A DNA stretch of 64,000 nucleotides from Xenophilus sp. AP218F. Its GTDB lineage: Bacteria > Pseudomonadota > Gammaproteobacteria > Burkholderiales > Chromobacteriaceae. The stretch lies in assembly GCA_002213445.1 (NCBI GenBank), contig NJIE01000003.1:310001-374000 (forward strand). The letters are read 5' to 3'. Positions 2,797 to 39,807 of this stretch are shown in pieces; position 1 is the first letter of the stretch, and each line of letters begins with the position of its first letter. The translations under genes were made by a program, and so were the position numbers. The notes below the pieces were generated by a model. It did no database searches. It saw only the letters and a list, made by a program, of their open reading frames with translations, and was not told where the DNA came from.

Positions 2797-4458
2797 TCAG
2801 CAGCTGCACACGCCGTTGGCATTGACCTGACGGTAGAGCTGGATCAGGCGGCTGGTGGAGCAGTCGTGCTCTGCGTGCTTGAGCTTGCCGGTCAGCTCGG
2901 CGTGGATGGTCTTGGCCAGCTGCTTGCCCAGCTCCACGCCCCACTGGTCGAAGCTGTTGATGTGCCAGATCACGCCCTGCACGAAGATCTTGTGCTCGTA
3001 GGCGGCGATCAGCGAACCCAGATTGCGCGGGTTGAGGCGGCTCATCAGCAGGGTGTTGGTCGGGCGGTTGCCGTCGAACACCTTGTGCGGCACCAGATCG
3101 TCCAGCGCCTTGCCCTTGACGCCTTGCGCTTCCAGCTCGGCGCGCGCCTCCTCGGCGGTCTTGCCGCGCATGAAGGCTTCGGCCTGGGCGAACACGTTGG
3201 CCAGCAGGATTTCGTGGTGGCCGGGCAGGCTGGAGCAGTTCTGCAGCGAGGCGATCAGGTCGATCGGCGAAATGTGGGTGCCCTGGTGCAGGAGCTGGAA
3301 GAAGGCGTGCTGGCCGTTGATGCCGGTTTCGCCCCAGATGATGGGCGCGGTTTCAAAATTGACCGGCTGCCCGCTGAGCATGGTCTTCTTGCCGTTGGAC
3401 TCCATGTCCAGCTGCTGGATGAAGGCCGGCAGGCGATGCAGGTACTGGTCGTACGGGGCGATCACGTGGCTGCCGCCGCCGAAGAAGTTGATGTACCAGA
3501 CGCCTATCATCGCCAGCAGCACCGGCATGTTCTGCTCGAACGGCGCGTTCTTGAAGTGCTGGTCCATGATGTGGGCGCCGTTCAAAAGCTCGGTGAAGTT
3601 CTCCTCGCCCAGATACAGCATGATGGGCAGGCCGATGGCCGACCACAGGCTGTAACGGCCGCCCACCCAGTCCCAGAACTCGAACATGTTGGACGGGTCG
3701 ATGCCGAACTCGGCCACCGCCTTCTGGTTGGTGGACACGGCCACGAAGTGCTTGGCGACGGCCTTCTCGTCGCGCGAGCGCTGCAGGAACCACTCGCGCG
3801 CGGTCAGCGCGTTGGTCAGCGTTTCCTGGGTGGTGAAGGTCTTGGACTCCACCACGAACAGCGTGGTTTCGGAGTGGACCTTCTTCAGCGTTTCCTTCAG
3901 TTGCGCGCCGTCCACGTTGGAGACGAAGTGCATGTTCAGCCGCGGGTGGCCGAAGGGCTTGAGCGCGCTACAGACCATCAGCGGGCCGAGGTCGGAGCCG
4001 CCGATGCCGATGTTGACGATGTCGGTGATCGGCTGGTTGGTGTAGCCCAGCCACTCGCCGGAGCGCACGGCGTGGGCGAACTTGCCCATCCGCTCCAGCA
4101 CCGAGTTGACCTTGGGCATCACGTCTTCGCCGTCCACCACGATGGGCGAGTTGGTGCGGTTGCGCAGCGCCACGTGCAGCACCGAGCGATCCTCGGTGCT
4201 GTTGATCTTGTCGCCCTTGAACATGGCCTTGATCTTGGCCGGCAGGCCGGCTTCGCGCGCCAGCTCCATCAAGCCGATCAAGGTGGCGTCGGTGATGCGG
4301 TTCTTGGAGTAATCGAGGAACAGCCCGCCCACTTCCAGCGAGTAGCGCTCGGCCCGTTCCGGGTCGGCGGCGAACAAGTCCCGCATGTGCAGGTGCTTGG
4401 CCTCGGCAAAATGGTCCCACAGCGATTGCCAGGCTGGCAGTTCGGTCAATTCACTCAT
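2797..4458 (-). CDS. pgi: glucose-6-phosphate isomerase
   Basis: A 553-residue cytoplasmic enzyme interconverting glucose 6-phosphate and fructose 6-phosphate. Length is normal for the family. Both PGI signatures are present: [14 protein letters not shown] in the middle and [12 protein letters not shown] near the C-terminus. It is the last gene of the minus-strand zwf-pgl-glk-hexR-pgi operon, 11 nt after hexR, and is followed by a strong terminator. In a cell using the Entner-Doudoroff route, Pgi would recycle fructose 6-phosphate back to glucose 6-phosphate. The C-terminus ends in an unremarkable short Cys-containing tail. Confidence 0.97.
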
Positions 4459-35305: not shown

Positions 35306-35454
35306 TGCCGGCGGCGCGCGCGCGCCAAACCCCTAGAATCGATAACGGTCGCGCAACCAGCCTGGTCGCGCGCCGCGTTCCGACTTTCCGCATGCGCATG
35401 GTCTTGCCGGCGCGCCCTGGCCGGCAATCCCTTCACCCTTGAGGAGTCTTGTCG

Positions 35455-37011
35455 ATGTTCAGCACTTCGCAGCTTGCCAATCGGGCCGCCGTGCCCACCG
35501 CCGCCGATCTCGAATCCAGCGAATTCCTCGCCCCGCCGCCTCCCGCCAGCCTGTTCCAGGGGTGCGACAGCGTCAACGGCTACGGCGTTTCCACCGCGGT
35601 GGAGGGCAGCCTCGCCACCAACGGCGGCTCCAGCCAGGTGTTCTACCAGATCGCCCTGGACGCCCAAAGCCTGTATCAGGCGCTGGACATCTCGCAGTCG
35701 ATCTCGGTCGGCTTCGGTCCGTTGGGCAACGTCAGCGAGAAAAGCGAATTCGTGCAACAGCTGAGCCTGACCACCTACAGCGTCAACATCGTGGTGCACG
35801 CCCGCCACGTCAAAGGCACCGACACCGCCACCGCCTTCCGCCTCAAGTCCGGCATCCAGCCGCCGCAAGGCAACGAGCAGCTGCGCGATTTCTTCCGCAG
35901 CTACGGCGATTCCTTCATTTCCGCCATCACCATCGGCGCCGAGTACTACGCGGTCTACACCTATTACGCGCAAAGCCAGACCGAGCGCGACAGCGTCACC
36001 GCCGAGCTGCAAGCCAACGGCATTTTCGAGTTCGGCAGCGTCAGCAGCGATTTCCAGGCCAAGTTGGACCGCGTCACCCAGAGCACCAAGGTGCGCATCT
36101 CGTTCAACCAGAATGTGTCCGGCATCGCCAATCCCAAACTGCCGACGCCGAACAATCTGGTGCAATACGCGCTGGACTTCCCCAGCCTGCCGATAGACGC
36201 GCCGGCCATCCTGTCCTTCTCCAGCACCGGCTACGAACACGTGCCCGGCATCGGCAGTTTCGAGCCCATCGTCAGCAACCGCGTCTTTCTCACCGGCCCG
36301 CAAGGCGACAGCGGCCTGTCGCAAGACCTGGTCAAAGAGCAGCAATTGATCAACCAGATAAACTGGCTGAAATCGATTTACGCTTTCTATCAGAATTTCA
36401 ACGACCCCAAGGTCAACGACGTCAGCCGCGAAGCGCAAAGCGACCTGCAGGCGCTCAACGACCAGTTCCTGCGCTATGTCAACGACCCGACCGCCTCGCT
36501 CAGCCGCCCGCCGCTGCCCTCGCTGCGGGAAGGCTCGCCCAAGCTCGCGTATCAGATCGCCTACTCGCCGCAGCAAGGCGGCGACGGCGGCGGGCCGTTC
36601 GACGACGTCGACATCACCACCTACCTGCAAAACCAGACCTATATCGCCAGCCTGCAGTTGCGCAGCGGCGGCTACGTCGACGCCCTGATCGTCAACTACC
36701 AGTCCAAGACCACCGGCGCCAGCTGGAGCGATTACCACGGCGGCGGCGGCGGCGGCCTGAGCCAGACGCTGACGCTGTTGCCCGGCCAGTTCGTCAACCG
36801 GCTGTGGGGCCGCTCCGGCGGCTACGTCGACCAGCTCAATCTGGCCATCAGCGATGGCCGCAGCGTGGGCGGCGGCGGCAATGGCGGCGGCGCGTTCGAT
36901 TGGCGCGCGCCGCAAGGCAGCGTCGTGCTCGGCTTCCGCGGCCGCAGCGGCAAGTATCTGGATCAGGTCAGCGCCGTCTACGCCACGCTGCAAGCCGCCA
37001 GCTGGGTTTAA
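35455..37011 (+). CDS. MACPF-domain protein with C-terminal beta-prism, putative pore-forming toxin
   Basis: A 518-residue protein with no signal peptide. Residues about 70-300 look like a MACPF domain; YGDSF followed six residues later by GA (residues 150-162) fits the MACPF signature Y-G-T-H-F-X6-G-G with conservative changes. Residues about 365-518 form a Gly-rich domain with three repeats, RSGGYVDA (403), RSGGYVDQ (453) and RSGKYLDQ (497), as expected for a three-fold beta-prism (jacalin-like) fold. The same two-domain plan occurs in Photorhabdus Plu-MACPF and in the Chromobacterium GNIP insecticidal proteins. The ATG at 35455 has GAGGAG 8 nt upstream. How the protein leaves the cell is unknown. 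Function is inferred from architecture. Confidence 0.75.
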   Translation: MFSTSQLANRAAVPTAADLESSEFLAPPPPASLFQGCDSVNGYGVSTAVEGSLATNGGSSQVFYQIALDAQSLYQALDISQSISVGFGPLGNVSEKSEFVQQLSLTTYSVNIVVHARHVKGTDTATAFRLKSGIQPPQGNEQLRDFFRSYGDSFISAITIGAEYYAVYTYYAQSQTERDSVTAELQANGIFEFGSVSSDFQAKLDRVTQSTKVRISFNQNVSGIANPKLPTPNNLVQYALDFPSLPIDAPAILSFSSTGYEHVPGIGSFEPIVSNRVFLTGPQGDSGLSQDLVKEQQLINQINWLKSIYAFYQNFNDPKVNDVSREAQSDLQALNDQFLRYVNDPTASLSRPPLPSLREGSPKLAYQIAYSPQQGGDGGGPFDDVDITTYLQNQTYIASLQLRSGGYVDALIVNYQSKTTGASWSDYHGGGGGGLSQTLTLLPGQFVNRLWGRSGGYVDQLNLAISDGRSVGGGGNGGGAFDWRAPQGSVVLGFRGRSGKYLDQVSAVYATLQAASWV

Positions 37012-37041
37012 GCGCAGTTCCCGGGGGAAGTCATCCGCTTG

Positions 37042-37072
37042 GGCCGCCGCTTGCGCGGCGGCCGCTTTTTTT
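37042..37072 (+). terminator. Rho-independent terminator of the MACPF gene
   Basis: GGCCGCCGC/GCGGCGGCC 9-bp stem, TTGC loop, GC then T7. The T run overlaps the stop codon of the convergent transporter gene. Confidence 0.88.
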
Positions 37073-38393
37073 ATAGGTTTTTCAGCAAGATCACGGTAAT
37101 CCCGCCCGGCGCCAGCAGCCGGCAGCTCCATTTCAGCGCGGCCAGCGCCGCGCCCTGCAAGCCGCAATGGCTGCCGATCAGCGGCCAGACGCGCCAGCCG
37201 GCGAACAGCGCCACGCCGATGCCGCCCAGCGGCATCATCAGGTTGGAAACGCTGTAATCCATCAGCTCGAACACCGTCTTGCCGAACAGTCTGGCCTCGG
37301 CCCAGGGGCCGAAGGACAGCGAGGCCGGCACGCCGCACACCAGCACCGCCAGCGACAGGCACAGGATCACCGGCTTGCGCCGCCAGCCGAACTCATCCAT
37401 GAACAGCGTGGCGATCAACTCCAGGATCGACACCGACGACGTCAGCGCCGCCACCGCCAGCAAGGCGAAGAAGGCGACGGCGAAAGCCTGGCCGAAGGGC
37501 AGGCTGGCGAACACCACCGGCATGGTCATGAAAGTCAGGCCGGGGCCTGCCGCCGGATCAAGATGAAAGGCGAACAGCGCCGGGAAGATCATCAGGCCGG
37601 CCAGCAGGGCCACGCAGGTGGACAGCAGCACCACCCACAGCGCCGAATGCAGCACCGGCGTCTCGCGCTTGACGTAGGAGCCGTAGGCGATCATCCCGCC
37701 GGTGCCGAGCGACAACGAGAAAAACGCCAGGCCCAGGGCGTCCACCACCATCGCCGCGCTCACCTTGGAAAAATCCGGCGCGAGGAAAGCCAGCACGCCG
37801 GCCCAGGCGCCGGGCAGCGTCAGCGAGCGGGCTATCAGCAGCAGCATGATCAGGAACAGCGCCGGCATCAGCAGCTTGCCGGCGCGCTCGATGCCCTTCT
37901 CCACGCCGCCCATCACGATCAGCAGGGTGGCCAGCACGAAGCCGGCCAGGCTCAGCAGCGGCCACCACGGATGGCCGACATAATCCTGGAAGATCCGGGT
38001 CAGCGCGCCGCCGTCGGTGGTCAGGATGCGGCCGTCCACCGCCAGCGCGAGGTAGCCCAGCGTCCAGCCGCCCACCACGCTGTAAAAGCTGCACAGCACG
38101 AAGCCGGCGAAGATGCCCATCAGGCCGATCAGCGGCCAGGCGCCGCCGGCCAGCTGGCGGAACATGCCCACCGGACCGCGCTGCGCCTGTCGGCCGAGGG
38201 CGAACTCCACCACCATCTGGGCCAGGCCCAGAGTGAAGCTGAACAGCAGGAACAGCAGCAGGAAAGCGCCCCCGCCGTTCTGGGCGGCGACGTAGGGGAA
38301 TTTCCAGATGGCGCCGAGGCCGATGGCGGAGCCGGCGGCGGCGAGAACGAAACCGAGTTTGGAACCCCAACCGGGGCGGGTGCTACTGGACAT
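37071..38393 (-). CDS. NSS-family Na+-dependent amino acid transporter
   Basis: A 440-residue inner-membrane transporter of the neurotransmitter:sodium symporter family, with 11-12 hydrophobic segments; the size fits bacterial members such as Tyt1 (tyrosine), TnaT (tryptophan) and MhsT. The TM1 motif reads GSAIGLGAIWKFPY followed by NGGGAF. The Asn that helps bind sodium at this point in LeuT (GLGN) is Ala here. FSLSLGTGGMIAYGSY lies in the TM6-7 region. The ATG at 38393 has AAGGAA 6 nt upstream. It is preceded by a Tyr-rich leader peptide and a terminator/antiterminator pair, so the substrate is probably tyrosine or another aromatic amino acid. Confidence 0.9.
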   Translation of the reverse strand: MSSSTRPGWGSKLGFVLAAAGSAIGLGAIWKFPYVAAQNGGGAFLLLFLLFSFTLGLAQMVVEFALGRQAQRGPVGMFRQLAGGAWPLIGLMGIFAGFVLCSFYSVVGGWTLGYLALAVDGRILTTDGGALTRIFQDYVGHPWWPLLSLAGFVLATLLIVMGGVEKGIERAGKLLMPALFLIMLLLIARSLTLPGAWAGVLAFLAPDFSKVSAAMVVDALGLAFFSLSLGTGGMIAYGSYVKRETPVLHSALWVVLLSTCVALLAGLMIFPALFAFHLDPAAGPGLTFMTMPVVFASLPFGQAFAVAFFALLAVAALTSSVSILELIATLFMDEFGWRRKPVILCLSLAVLVCGVPASLSFGPWAEARLFGKTVFELMDYSVSNLMMPLGGIGVALFAGWRVWPLIGSHCGLQGAALAALKWSCRLLAPGGITVILLKNL

Positions 38394-38457
38394 GGCGTTT
38401 CCTTGCAATCACTGAAAGCGGGATCGCAGGGCGCGCAGCGGGACGGGCAGATACGAC

Positions 38458-38480
38458 AAGGCCGCCTCGCGGGCGGCCCT
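38458..38480 (-). terminator. attenuator hairpin before the NSS transporter gene
   Basis: On the minus strand AGGGCCGCC/GGCGGCCTT gives a 9-bp stem (one G-T pair) with a CGCGA loop, 65 nt before the transporter start. The T run is poor. Its left arm, with CC before it, can pair instead with GGCGGCCTGG (38523-38532) inside the leader peptide coding sequence, which would form an antiterminator. A second hairpin, TGAACC-GATAA-GGTTCA (38491-38507), includes the leader stop codon. Confidence 0.6.
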
Positions 38481-38504
38481 GGGATTTCGATGAACCTTAT
38501 CGGT

Positions 38505-38597
38505 TCAGATGAACGAAGCCCTCCAGGCCGCCGGGTGGCGTACCGGATAATAGTTGCCGTAATAGGCAAGGGCGAAGGTCGGGCTGGCATTCATCAT
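38505..38597 (-). CDS. Tyr-rich leader peptide, 30 residues
   Basis: A short ORF (begins MMNASPTFALA) with two Tyr pairs close together, YYGNYY at residues 12-17, plus two Phe and one Trp in the whole peptide. About 14 nt after the last Tyr codon begins GGCGGCCTGG, which is complementary to the left arm of the attenuator hairpin. Ribosome stalling at the Tyr codons would free this segment, block the hairpin and let transcription reach the NSS transporter gene; smooth translation to the stop would cover it. No good Shine-Dalgarno is visible; the predicted transcription start lies only a few bases upstream, so it may be leaderless. The mechanism is inferred. Confidence 0.55.
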   Translation of the reverse strand: MMNASPTFALAYYGNYYPVRHPAAWRASFI

Positions 38598-38606
38598 GGA
38601 ACGCTT

Positions 38607-38635
38607 ATCATGCTTGCCGCGCGCGCCGCTGTCAA
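38607..38635 (-). promoter_or_regulatory. promoter for leader peptide and NSS transporter
   Basis: On the minus strand TTGACA (38630-38635), 17-bp spacer, CATGAT (38607-38612). The predicted start falls about 7 nt after the -10, almost at the leader ATG (38597). Confidence 0.6.
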
Positions 38636-38783
38636 ACGCGGCCCGCCACGCCAAGAGCATGGCTGTGGAAATTTACAGATTTCTTTCGCATCAAATGCGC
38701 CCAAGTTCCGCCATCATGCGGATTCATCGTGGAAAAACCGCGCGGCCTGGACTTTGATGGATATATCGCCACGGAGAACCGCC

Positions 38784-39068
38784 ATGGAATTCGACGAAGT
38801 CAAACCGGAACATTTCATCACCCTGTCGCGCGACCCCTTCCCCCACATCCTGATCGACCGCGCCCTGATGCAGATCGCCGGCGGCGGGCCTGTCGCTTCG
38901 GACTTCCACAAGAAAGCGCTGGCCGCCGCGGGTTGGAAGCACCACAACCTGATTCCCTTCGGCAAGCATCCGAAAGACGCCGCCAAGGCCTACAACCGCA
39001 TCCGCGAAGCGCTGCGCGCCTGCCGGCAGGAACCGGAAGCCATCCTGGCCGCGCTGGAAGGGCCCTAA
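38784..39068 (+). CDS. hypothetical protein, 94 residues
   Basis: A small protein I do not recognise. It starts MEFDEVKPEHF, has a mixed helical composition, no signal peptide and no membrane segment, and contains GWKHHNLIPFGKHPKDAAKAYNR, which suggests a basic surface. GGAG lies 8-9 nt before the ATG. Codon use matches the neighbours. It lies between the transporter leader (divergent) and yqaA (convergent), which gives no hint of function. Confidence 0.65.
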   Translation: MEFDEVKPEHFITLSRDPFPHILIDRALMQIAGGGPVASDFHKKALAAAGWKHHNLIPFGKHPKDAAKAYNRIREALRACRQEPEAILAALEGP

Positions 39069-39076
39069 CCCCGCGC

Positions 39077-39493
39077 TCAGGCCGCCAGCGCCAATACCCC
39101 CCAGGCCAGCGCCAGATAACGCGCCGCCTTGCCCAGCGTCAGCCAGAGCAGGCAGGGCAACCAGGGCAGACGCAGCCAGCCGGCCGCCAGCGGAATGGCG
39201 TCGCCGATCAGCGGCACCCAGGACAGCAGCAGCACGGCGGGGCCGAAGCGCTCGAAGCCGCGCGCCAGCCGCGGCGACAGCTCTTTTCTGGGCGCGAGCC
39301 GCCCCAGCCACAGGCTGGTGACGCTGCCTGCGGTATTGGCGACGGTGGCGATCAGCAAGGCCGGCCACAGCCACTGCGGCCACTGGTACAGAAAGGCCGA
39401 CAAGGCCAGCTCGGAACTGCCGGGCAGGATGGTGGCCGAGGTGAACGCCGACAGAGCCAGCCCGCCCAGCGCCCAGGCGGCCGCCTCGCTCAT
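39077..39493 (-). CDS. YqaA-like membrane protein (VTT/DedA relative)
   Basis: A 138-residue integral membrane protein of the YqaA type, a small relative of the DedA/VTT family. About four hydrophobic segments are present, with SATILPGSSELAL near the N-terminus and the helical-hairpin region WVPLIGDAIPLAAGWLRLPW. VTT proteins scramble or transport lipids; the role of YqaA is unknown. Its ATG overlaps the cyaY stop by 4 nt (ATGA), so it is translationally coupled to cyaY. Confidence 0.87.
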   Translation of the reverse strand: MSEAAAWALGGLALSAFTSATILPGSSELALSAFLYQWPQWLWPALLIATVANTAGSVTSLWLGRLAPRKELSPRLARGFERFGPAVLLLSWVPLIGDAIPLAAGWLRLPWLPCLLWLTLGKAARYLALAWGVLALAA

Positions 39494-39807
39494 GCCGACA
39501 GCTCGAAGTCGTCGCCGCTGCCGTCGCGCACCGCCTGCCGCAGAGTGGCGAAGAACTCCGCGCCGTCGCGCGCCGCCAGCCAGCGGCCGTCGCGCAGCGA
39601 AAAATGGTAGCCGCCGCTCTTGGCCGCGATCCAGAGTTCCTGGTTGGCCCCATGGCGGTTGACCACCACCTTGCCGCCGTCGTCGAACTCGATTTCCAGC
39701 ACATTGCCCATGCGCAGGGTATCGACGTCGACGCCCTGATCGTCCAGCGCCTCCTCGATGCGGTTGAAGATGGCGTCGGTCAGCGTCAGAAATTCGCTCT
39801 CGGTCAT
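39490..39807 (-). CDS. cyaY: CyaY, bacterial frataxin
   Basis: A 105-residue iron-binding protein regulating iron-sulfur cluster assembly on IscS. The acidic first helix (TDAIFNRIEEALDD) and the sheet with NRHGANQELWIAAKSGGYHF are typical. The ATG at 39807 is preferred, with GGGAA upstream; 39819 is an alternative. Divergent to lptM, as in many proteobacteria. Confidence 0.94.
   Translation of the reverse strand: MTESEFLTLTDAIFNRIEEALDDQGVDVDTLRMGNVLEIEFDDGGKVVVNRHGANQELWIAAKSGGYHFSLRDGRWLAARDGAEFFATLRQAVRDGSGDDFELSA

Follow-up and report, generated by a model that had tools for sequence, protein, structure and literature searches.

A predicted tyrosine-sensing leader peptide attenuator ahead of an NSS transporter gene in Xenophilus sp. 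AP218F, with Trp and Phe counterparts at paralogous genes

The window, a 64,000-nucleotide stretch of contig NJIE01000003.1 of Xenophilus sp. AP218F, carries on its minus strand an NSS (SNF) transporter gene preceded by a short leader ORF with a cluster of Tyr codons and a GC-rich hairpin. This arrangement is very probably a ribosome-mediated transcription attenuator, which would sense the charging of tRNA-Tyr and control a single NSS gene, the product of which probably imports tyrosine. The attenuation reading of the original prediction is supported by comparison with relatives, since in each of the 19 orthologues with readable upstream DNA the Tyr codons are kept and the alternative stem can form. 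In addition to what had been proposed, the element is one of a set of putative attenuators tuned to Tyr, Trp and Phe and located before paralogous transporters.

Organization of the locus

All parts named by the original prediction, namely the promoter, the leader ORF, the Tyr cluster, the hairpin and the segment GGCGGCCTGG, were found on the minus strand where it had placed them, the latter 14 nt past the last Tyr codon (Table 1). Three mutually exclusive stems (1:2, 2:3 and 3:4) can be drawn in the leader. Folded alone, the protector stretch (38518-38552) reached -14.7 kcal/mol, the terminator stretch (38450-38482) -20.2 kcal/mol and the antiterminator 2:3, formed by GGCGGCCTGG with CCAGGGCCGCC, -26.5 kcal/mol with the small hairpin (38507-38491) included. 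The RNA from 38600 to 38440 is more stable than its shuffles (z -3.48; 1 out of 200 as good). Two weak points conceded at the outset are real: the T run is poor (at most four T in 8 nt in the window) and there is no Shine-Dalgarno sequence ahead of the leader ORF. A generic terminator scan, which demands at least five T in 8 nt, gave no site at the window hairpin.

The product of the downstream gene was assigned to the Pfam family SNF (PF00209, E 1.1e-55), and an AAGGA Shine-Dalgarno sequence of this gene is located at 38404-38400 on the minus strand. Convergent with the NSS gene is a plus-strand gene (35449-37011) encoding a protein whose C-terminal domain is a jacalin-like lectin (PF01419, E 1.3e-13); the rest of this protein gave no Pfam match.

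Table 1. Features of the predicted tyrosine attenuator and the NSS gene in the window
Feature	Position	Strand	Remarks
Promoter	38607..38635	-	-35 TTGACA 38635-38630, 17-nt spacer, -10 CATGAT 38612-38607
Leader peptide ORF, MMNASPTFALAYYGNYYPVRHPAAWRASFI, 30 codons + stop	38505..38597	-	ATG 9 nt past the -10 box; predicted leaderless
Tyr codons 1 and 2 (TAT TAC)	38559..38564	-	
Tyr codons 3 and 4 (TAT TAT), control codons closest to segment 1	38547..38552	-	
Protector hairpin, segments 1:2	38522..38547	-	begins at the final base of the last Tyr codon
Segment 2, GGCGGCCTGG, antiterminator arm able to pair with segment 3	38523..38532	-	
Small hairpin, TGAACC-GATAA-GGTTCA	38491..38507	-	at/after the leader stop codon; folds within the antiterminator
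Predicted terminator hairpin, segments 3:4, CAGGGCCGCC-CGCGA-GGCGGCCTTG	38457..38481	-	
Weak U tract, TTGTCGTATCT	38449..38459	-	overlaps the end of the terminator 3' arm
Target gene, NSS (SNF) transporter of 440 aa, tyrosine as predicted substrate	37071..38393	-	

Dinucleotide shuffles of the 341-nt intergenic stretch (n = 2000) did not yield a single ATG ORF of 10 to 45 codons with at least four Tyr in six codons. Any one amino acid was so clustered in 388 of these shuffles, and in 15 when a hairpin was required as well, so that the layout alone is weak evidence and one sequence is not decisive. The specificity rests on the Tyr codons and their conservation.

Conservation of the leader among orthologues

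After removal of identical copies, 188 NSS genes were available, 183 of which have at least 200 nt of upstream DNA. Orthologues were defined as NSS proteins with at least 68% identity to that of the window; there are 21 of them, including 19 with at least 200 nt upstream and two without usable upstream DNA (L136, 51 nt, and L193, 3 nt). By search code the 19 belong to seven genera: eight to g168 (iodobacter-type), four to g3, three to g62 (Deefgea-type) and one each to g1, g5, g7 and g91. No orthologue was found in the 18 other genomes of the genus that were covered (best match 59%). Six of 60 other genomes examined within the family encode orthologues with 68-79% identity, and orthologues also occur in two further families; among the matches listed, they are located on contigs of Iodobacter, Deefgea, Crenobacter, Craterilacuibacter and a Laribacter MAG, as well as in two MAGs labelled Proteobacteria and Janthinobacterium.

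A leader with two to four Tyr in six codons, followed by a GGCCGCC-loop-GGCGGCC hairpin, is present in all 19 orthologues. With a threshold of at least two Tyr in six codons, leader plus hairpin was detected in 19/19 orthologues compared to 0/164 other NSS upstream regions, and at three Tyr in six codons in 18/19 compared to 0/3800 shuffles. The comparison with relatives suggested along with the original prediction thus gave Tyr codons kept in 19/19 and a peptide whose N-terminal half drifts. The last Tyr codon and the end of the stop codon are 42 nt apart in 17 of the 19 (45 in L124, 36 in L117). A TTGAC-type -35 element is followed after 16-18 nt by a hexamer with A at position 2 and T at position 6 in all 19, such hexamers being favoured by the scoring. 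The best 8 nt beside the orthologue terminators contain four to seven T; some relatives have a good U tract (TTTTTGTT), others an interrupted one (TTGTTGCA, TTGTCATT), and that of the window (TTGTCGTA) is among the weakest of the 19.

These counts bear on the explanation that ORF and hairpin are unrelated, the ORF having arisen by chance next to an ordinary terminator or a structured 5' UTR. The 15 shuffles with a cluster of some amino acid and a hairpin, the weak U tract and the limited covariation (see below) speak for it, but a Tyr leader with hairpin in 19/19 orthologues versus 0/164 other NSS upstream regions leaves it barely credible; an ordinary terminator with a chance ORF was rejected on the same counts. 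Control by TyrR or another DNA-binding regulator was considered as a further alternative.

Searches of Rfam matched no leader family, neither for the window (36500-39800, E up to 5) nor for seven related loci (E up to 1). A covariance model of the Tyr leaders, run with strict search filters, gave strong matches (E at most 1e-7) in the 61 family genomes at seven sites only, all before known NSS orthologues, and a single match in the window's genome (E up to 0.01); therefore, no second Tyr-attenuated gene was found. Among the weaker matches (9.6e-6 and above) are both Phe sites and no fewer than four of the Trp sites, described below.

Alternative pairing and covariation

The original prediction had stated that the segment past the Tyr codons can pair with the left arm of the hairpin. 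This holds for the stretch from the last Tyr codon to the stop codon in 19/19 orthologues, with pairing energies of -15.0 to -25.8 kcal/mol. Upon synonymous recoding of the segment after the Tyr codons (500 recodings each, weighted by the G+C content of the upstream stretch and not by codon usage), mean pairing was weaker than native in 18 of the 19. Singly, five orthologues beat 95% of their recodings (fractions 0.002 for the window, 0.004 for L202, 0.008 for L124, 0.014 for L037 and 0.038 for L056); L126, L038, L117 and three g62 rows gave fractions of 0.05-0.11, and the eight g168 rows do not beat recoding (0.10-0.47). The combined p value is approximately 3e-7 (Fisher, nine representatives from seven genera, treated as independent though not fully so). 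Compared to dinucleotide shuffles, 8 of the 19 antiterminators beat 95% (window fraction 0.006). When segment 2 and the arm were swapped between genera, a modest preference for the cognate pair was obtained (permutation p 0.028), the own arm ranking sixth of nine for the window and eighth for L117.

Folding from the stalled position with segment 4 not yet made gave the antiterminator. The full minimum-energy fold from the same position holds the terminator in 16 of the 19, while the window, L124 and L126 show pairing of the antiterminator type; antitermination must therefore rely on the order of folding.

Fifteen of the 19 sequences were aligned (L185, L187, L195 and L196 omitted as near-copies), and their consensus fold contains the terminator and, directly past the last Tyr codon, a protector hairpin. 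The protector contains one compensatory pair, U-A in seven and C-G in six sequences; the window is mismatched there. In a shuffle control that ignores the relatedness of the sequences, three measures lay above the shuffles (as high in 0 of 500 for cells paired, 15 for doubly changed cells and 3 for the covariation score), while two did not (129 for pairs with double change, 406 for pair types). The 7-bp core of the terminator is invariant in the 15 aligned relatives; it cannot covary and thus speaks neither for nor against the pairing. Covarying alternative stems, named in the original prediction as a sign of support, were accordingly found in part: the protector shows the U-A/C-G change, but two of five measures remain within the shuffles and the terminator core does not vary. 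The weak U tract of the window and the limited covariation count against the attenuator reading, as do the small number of antiterminators that singly beat their controls, the modest cognate preference and the terminator in most full folds.

Promoter spacing and the predicted leaderless transcript

In all 52 Tyr, Trp and Phe attenuators the leader ATG is located 6-10 nt past the -10 box. The gap is 6 nt in five, 8 nt in two and 9 nt in twelve of the Tyr attenuators, 6-10 nt in 31/31 Trp and 7 nt in 2/2 Phe attenuators; the promoter search takes the -35/-10 pair with the best score and is thereby biased towards a positive outcome. The same script gave no promoter at that spacing for the leaders of Aeromonas (12) and Proteus/Morganella (six; see below). 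Transcription usually starts about 7 nt past the -10 box, which would let the mRNA begin 0-4 nt before the ATG, with no room for a Shine-Dalgarno sequence. Hence, the leader mRNA is predicted to be leaderless on the basis of promoter spacing, and this would explain the missing Shine-Dalgarno sequence. At -5 kcal/mol or better, such a sequence was detected in none of the 19 Tyr leaders (mean -1.1 kcal/mol) and in 1 of the 31 Trp leaders. The NSS genes behind them have mean values of -4.1 kcal/mol (3/19 at -5 or better) after Tyr leaders and -5.5 kcal/mol (20/31) after Trp leaders.

A transcript beginning farther upstream, in which case the leader would not be leaderless, is rather unlikely. An in-frame ATG at 38660 fits such a start, but it lies ahead of the -35 box, and the best -35/-10 pair is placed 6-9 nt before the leader ATG in 19/19 Tyr attenuators, with the similar spacings given above for the Trp and Phe attenuators. 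The predicted leaderless transcript has a precedent in Sinorhizobium meliloti trpL (PMC7298713).

Proposed mechanism

Comparison with relatives shows the parts, how far they are conserved and which alternative stems can form; stalling, termination and tyrosine as signal and as substrate are inferred. RNA polymerase would start no more than about 3 nt from the leader ATG, and the leader would be translated from a leaderless mRNA. With ample Tyr-tRNA, the ribosome would reach the stop codon and cover segment 2, so that the 3:4 terminator could form and transcription would end before the gene. With scarce Tyr-tRNA, the ribosome would stall at the Tyr cluster and cover segment 1; segments 2:3 would pair, no terminator would form and the transporter would be made. 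Without translation, 1:2 and 3:4 would both form and transcription would end.

The leader might also sense free tyrosine via arrest by the nascent peptide, as in TnaC- or SpeFL-like systems, instead of uncharged tRNA-Tyr. The C-terminal peptide, AARWVAFI or nearly so, is indeed alike in the g168 and g62 leaders; yet the residues differ in other genera (AWRASFI, GRLVLS, GEFARV, SRRIMCR), where the encoded RNA can still pair, and the repeated codon is swapped among paralogues as codon-based sensing predicts. Peptide arrest is therefore considered very unlikely, and sensing of tRNA-Tyr charging is preferred.

Paralogues with other control codons

Typing of the remaining leaders, by motifs chosen after viewing them, resulted in 31 Trp leaders (L158 typed on a single Trp codon), two Phe leaders, 12 possible Phe leaders (Aeromonas) and six Leu leaders (Proteus/Morganella); 113 NSS upstream regions have none of these types, including L186 with its degenerate Trp leader, and five were unreadable. 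Several relatives have tandem NSS genes, in which the single copies can be preceded by a separate promoter and attenuator. In both G031 and G030, the tandem order is Tyr (GQSYYP; GYVYYP), Phe (FFAFSF; FFSFYF) and Trp (NWWRLF; RRWWWRP). Trp leaders precede 15 NSS genes of the genus Chromobacterium with 57-59% identity. One of these 15 is a second NSS gene of the genome to which the window belongs; it is located outside the window (L134, G000:C16:215602-216906) and has the Trp leader MQTNATFSFNRNWWWRS (NRNWWWRS). Another paralogue of this genome, L003/L135, has no leader of these types.

The leader type tracks the transporter tree: seven changes were counted over 183 labelled rows compared to a mean of 65.9 for shuffled labels, none of 200 shuffles being as low. 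Per type, the 187-row tree requires one change for Tyr, two for Trp, one for Phe, two for possible Phe and one for Leu. In a maximum-likelihood tree of 54 rows, hand-picked from the 187 with L186 left out, the Tyr copies form one clade (SH-aLRT 95) and, without L186, so do the Trp copies (98); the Phe leaders are sister to copies without attenuator. Both trees carry long-branch warnings. L186 itself is a third NSS gene (start near 4399) with a degenerate Trp leader, in which an early stop is present and the terminator hairpin is kept, as in an attenuator in decay. The second copy of the g168 NSS arrays has no attenuator (8/8). In L187, L190, L191 and L192, a repeat-like inverted sequence was observed ahead of copy 2, between NSS copies 1 and 2.

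Antiterminator pairing in the Trp set beat 95% of shuffles in 14/31 and 80% in 27/31 leaders, and for the Phe row L126 a value of -25.9 kcal/mol was computed by hand, without a control. Two further groups were observed outside the Tyr, Trp and Phe set. In six Proteus and Morganella loci (L106, L109, L111, L092, L088 and L107; NSS gene start near 2989), a Leu-rich leader (e.g. LLGLNLLLL) is followed by a GCCACC/GGTGGC-type terminator, possibly a leucine attenuator on a transporter. In Aeromonas (L096, L098, L089 and nine other loci), a leader with GRF, mostly FGRFFSSQER, is located before a GGTCGC/GCGGCC terminator; this is possibly a Phe attenuator, without the leaderless spacing.

Taken together, Chromobacterium relatives (search families f1, f5 and f51) probably contain modular, leaderless, codon-tuned attenuators, a separate one for each aromatic transporter (Tyr, Phe or Trp), which are direct neighbours in some genomes. 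As the control codons track the clade of the transporter, the leader peptide would reveal what an uncharacterised NSS transporter carries. A few codon changes would have re-tuned one device from one amino acid to another, and the Tyr version would be the first leader-peptide attenuator that senses tyrosine.

Predicted substrate of the transporter

The closest solved structure to the window NSS protein is 4us3 (E 1.6e-94), which we take to be MhsT, a transporter of several hydrophobic amino acids. At position 231 in TM6, aligned with a Met of 4us3, Thr is found in the Tyr clade and Ala in the Trp clade (one of 17 columns separating these two clades), Val in the Phe pair and the unattenuated copies and Leu in the Leu and Aeromonas groups. 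This is presumably a position of the substrate pocket, corresponding to LeuT F259. The TM6 differences fit, without showing, differences in substrate. There is an outside chance that the leader senses tyrosine and the main substrate of the transporter is another hydrophobic amino acid or several of them, as the relationship to 4us3 would favour. Against this, leader identity tracks the transporter clades, also where three tandem paralogues have a Tyr, a Phe and a Trp leader, and the TM6 residue varies along with it. Tyrosine is probably imported by the NSS protein of the window.

Comparison with known systems

Ribosome-mediated attenuators are known from trp, pheA and his of E. coli (trpL-, pheL- and hisL-type), and leader-peptide attenuation is textbook knowledge for the biosynthesis of Trp, Phe, His, Leu, Ile/Val and Thr. 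The window device resembles the trpL-, pheL- and hisL-type systems in a short peptide rich in the regulating residue, in 1:2, 2:3 and 3:4 hairpins and in a putative intrinsic terminator before the gene. Unlike them, it is predicted to sense tyrosine, to control uptake instead of biosynthesis and to have a leaderless leader. T-boxes bind tRNA directly, without a leader peptide, and differ from the window device in this respect. Tyrosine T-boxes share with it the control of expression by Tyr-tRNA charging, and it is T-boxes instead of attenuators that a study of 2005 gives for tyrosine (PMC1262725). Substrates of transporters have reportedly been predicted from the specificity of T-boxes (PMC2494555).

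Corynebacterium glutamicum AroR, located before aroF, is likewise a leader peptide (Phe-Tyr-Phe) ahead of an aromatic-pathway operon; according to a review, its response is to a shortage of Phe and does not depend on how much Tyr is available, and aroF encodes DAHP synthase (PMC11802643). In S. meliloti trpL/rnTrpL, the 5' end of the attenuator RNA is at the ATG of the leader ORF as predicted here, whereas the system is specific for Trp, controls a biosynthesis operon and belongs to the Alphaproteobacteria (PMC7298713). COG0733 (NSS) genes of Vibrionales are under TyrR or TrpR and were predicted from this regulation to encode Tyr or Trp transporters; in contrast to the window device, DNA-binding regulators and not attenuation are involved (PMC5343134).

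The main text of a 2010 survey of premature terminators mentions neither 'tyrosine' nor 'symporter' (PMC2965389), and tyrosine is not among the textbook attenuated pathways in the open-licence texts examined. The original prediction knew of no described Tyr leader peptide before an NSS gene. In line with this, among the matches listed for titles and abstract openings of the open-licence literature, there was neither a leader peptide that senses tyrosine nor one located ahead of an NSS gene.

The element is most likely a real, conserved attenuator of a known mechanistic class, tuned to tyrosine. New within this class are the putative regulating amino acid, the transport target, the predicted leaderless leader and the codon-swapped sister copies. 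A Tyr version on an uptake gene, together with its Trp and Phe sisters, provides substrate predictions for transporters akin to neurotransmitter carriers. It also offers a naturally occurring series, along which a single regulatory RNA was seemingly re-tuned through codon swaps.
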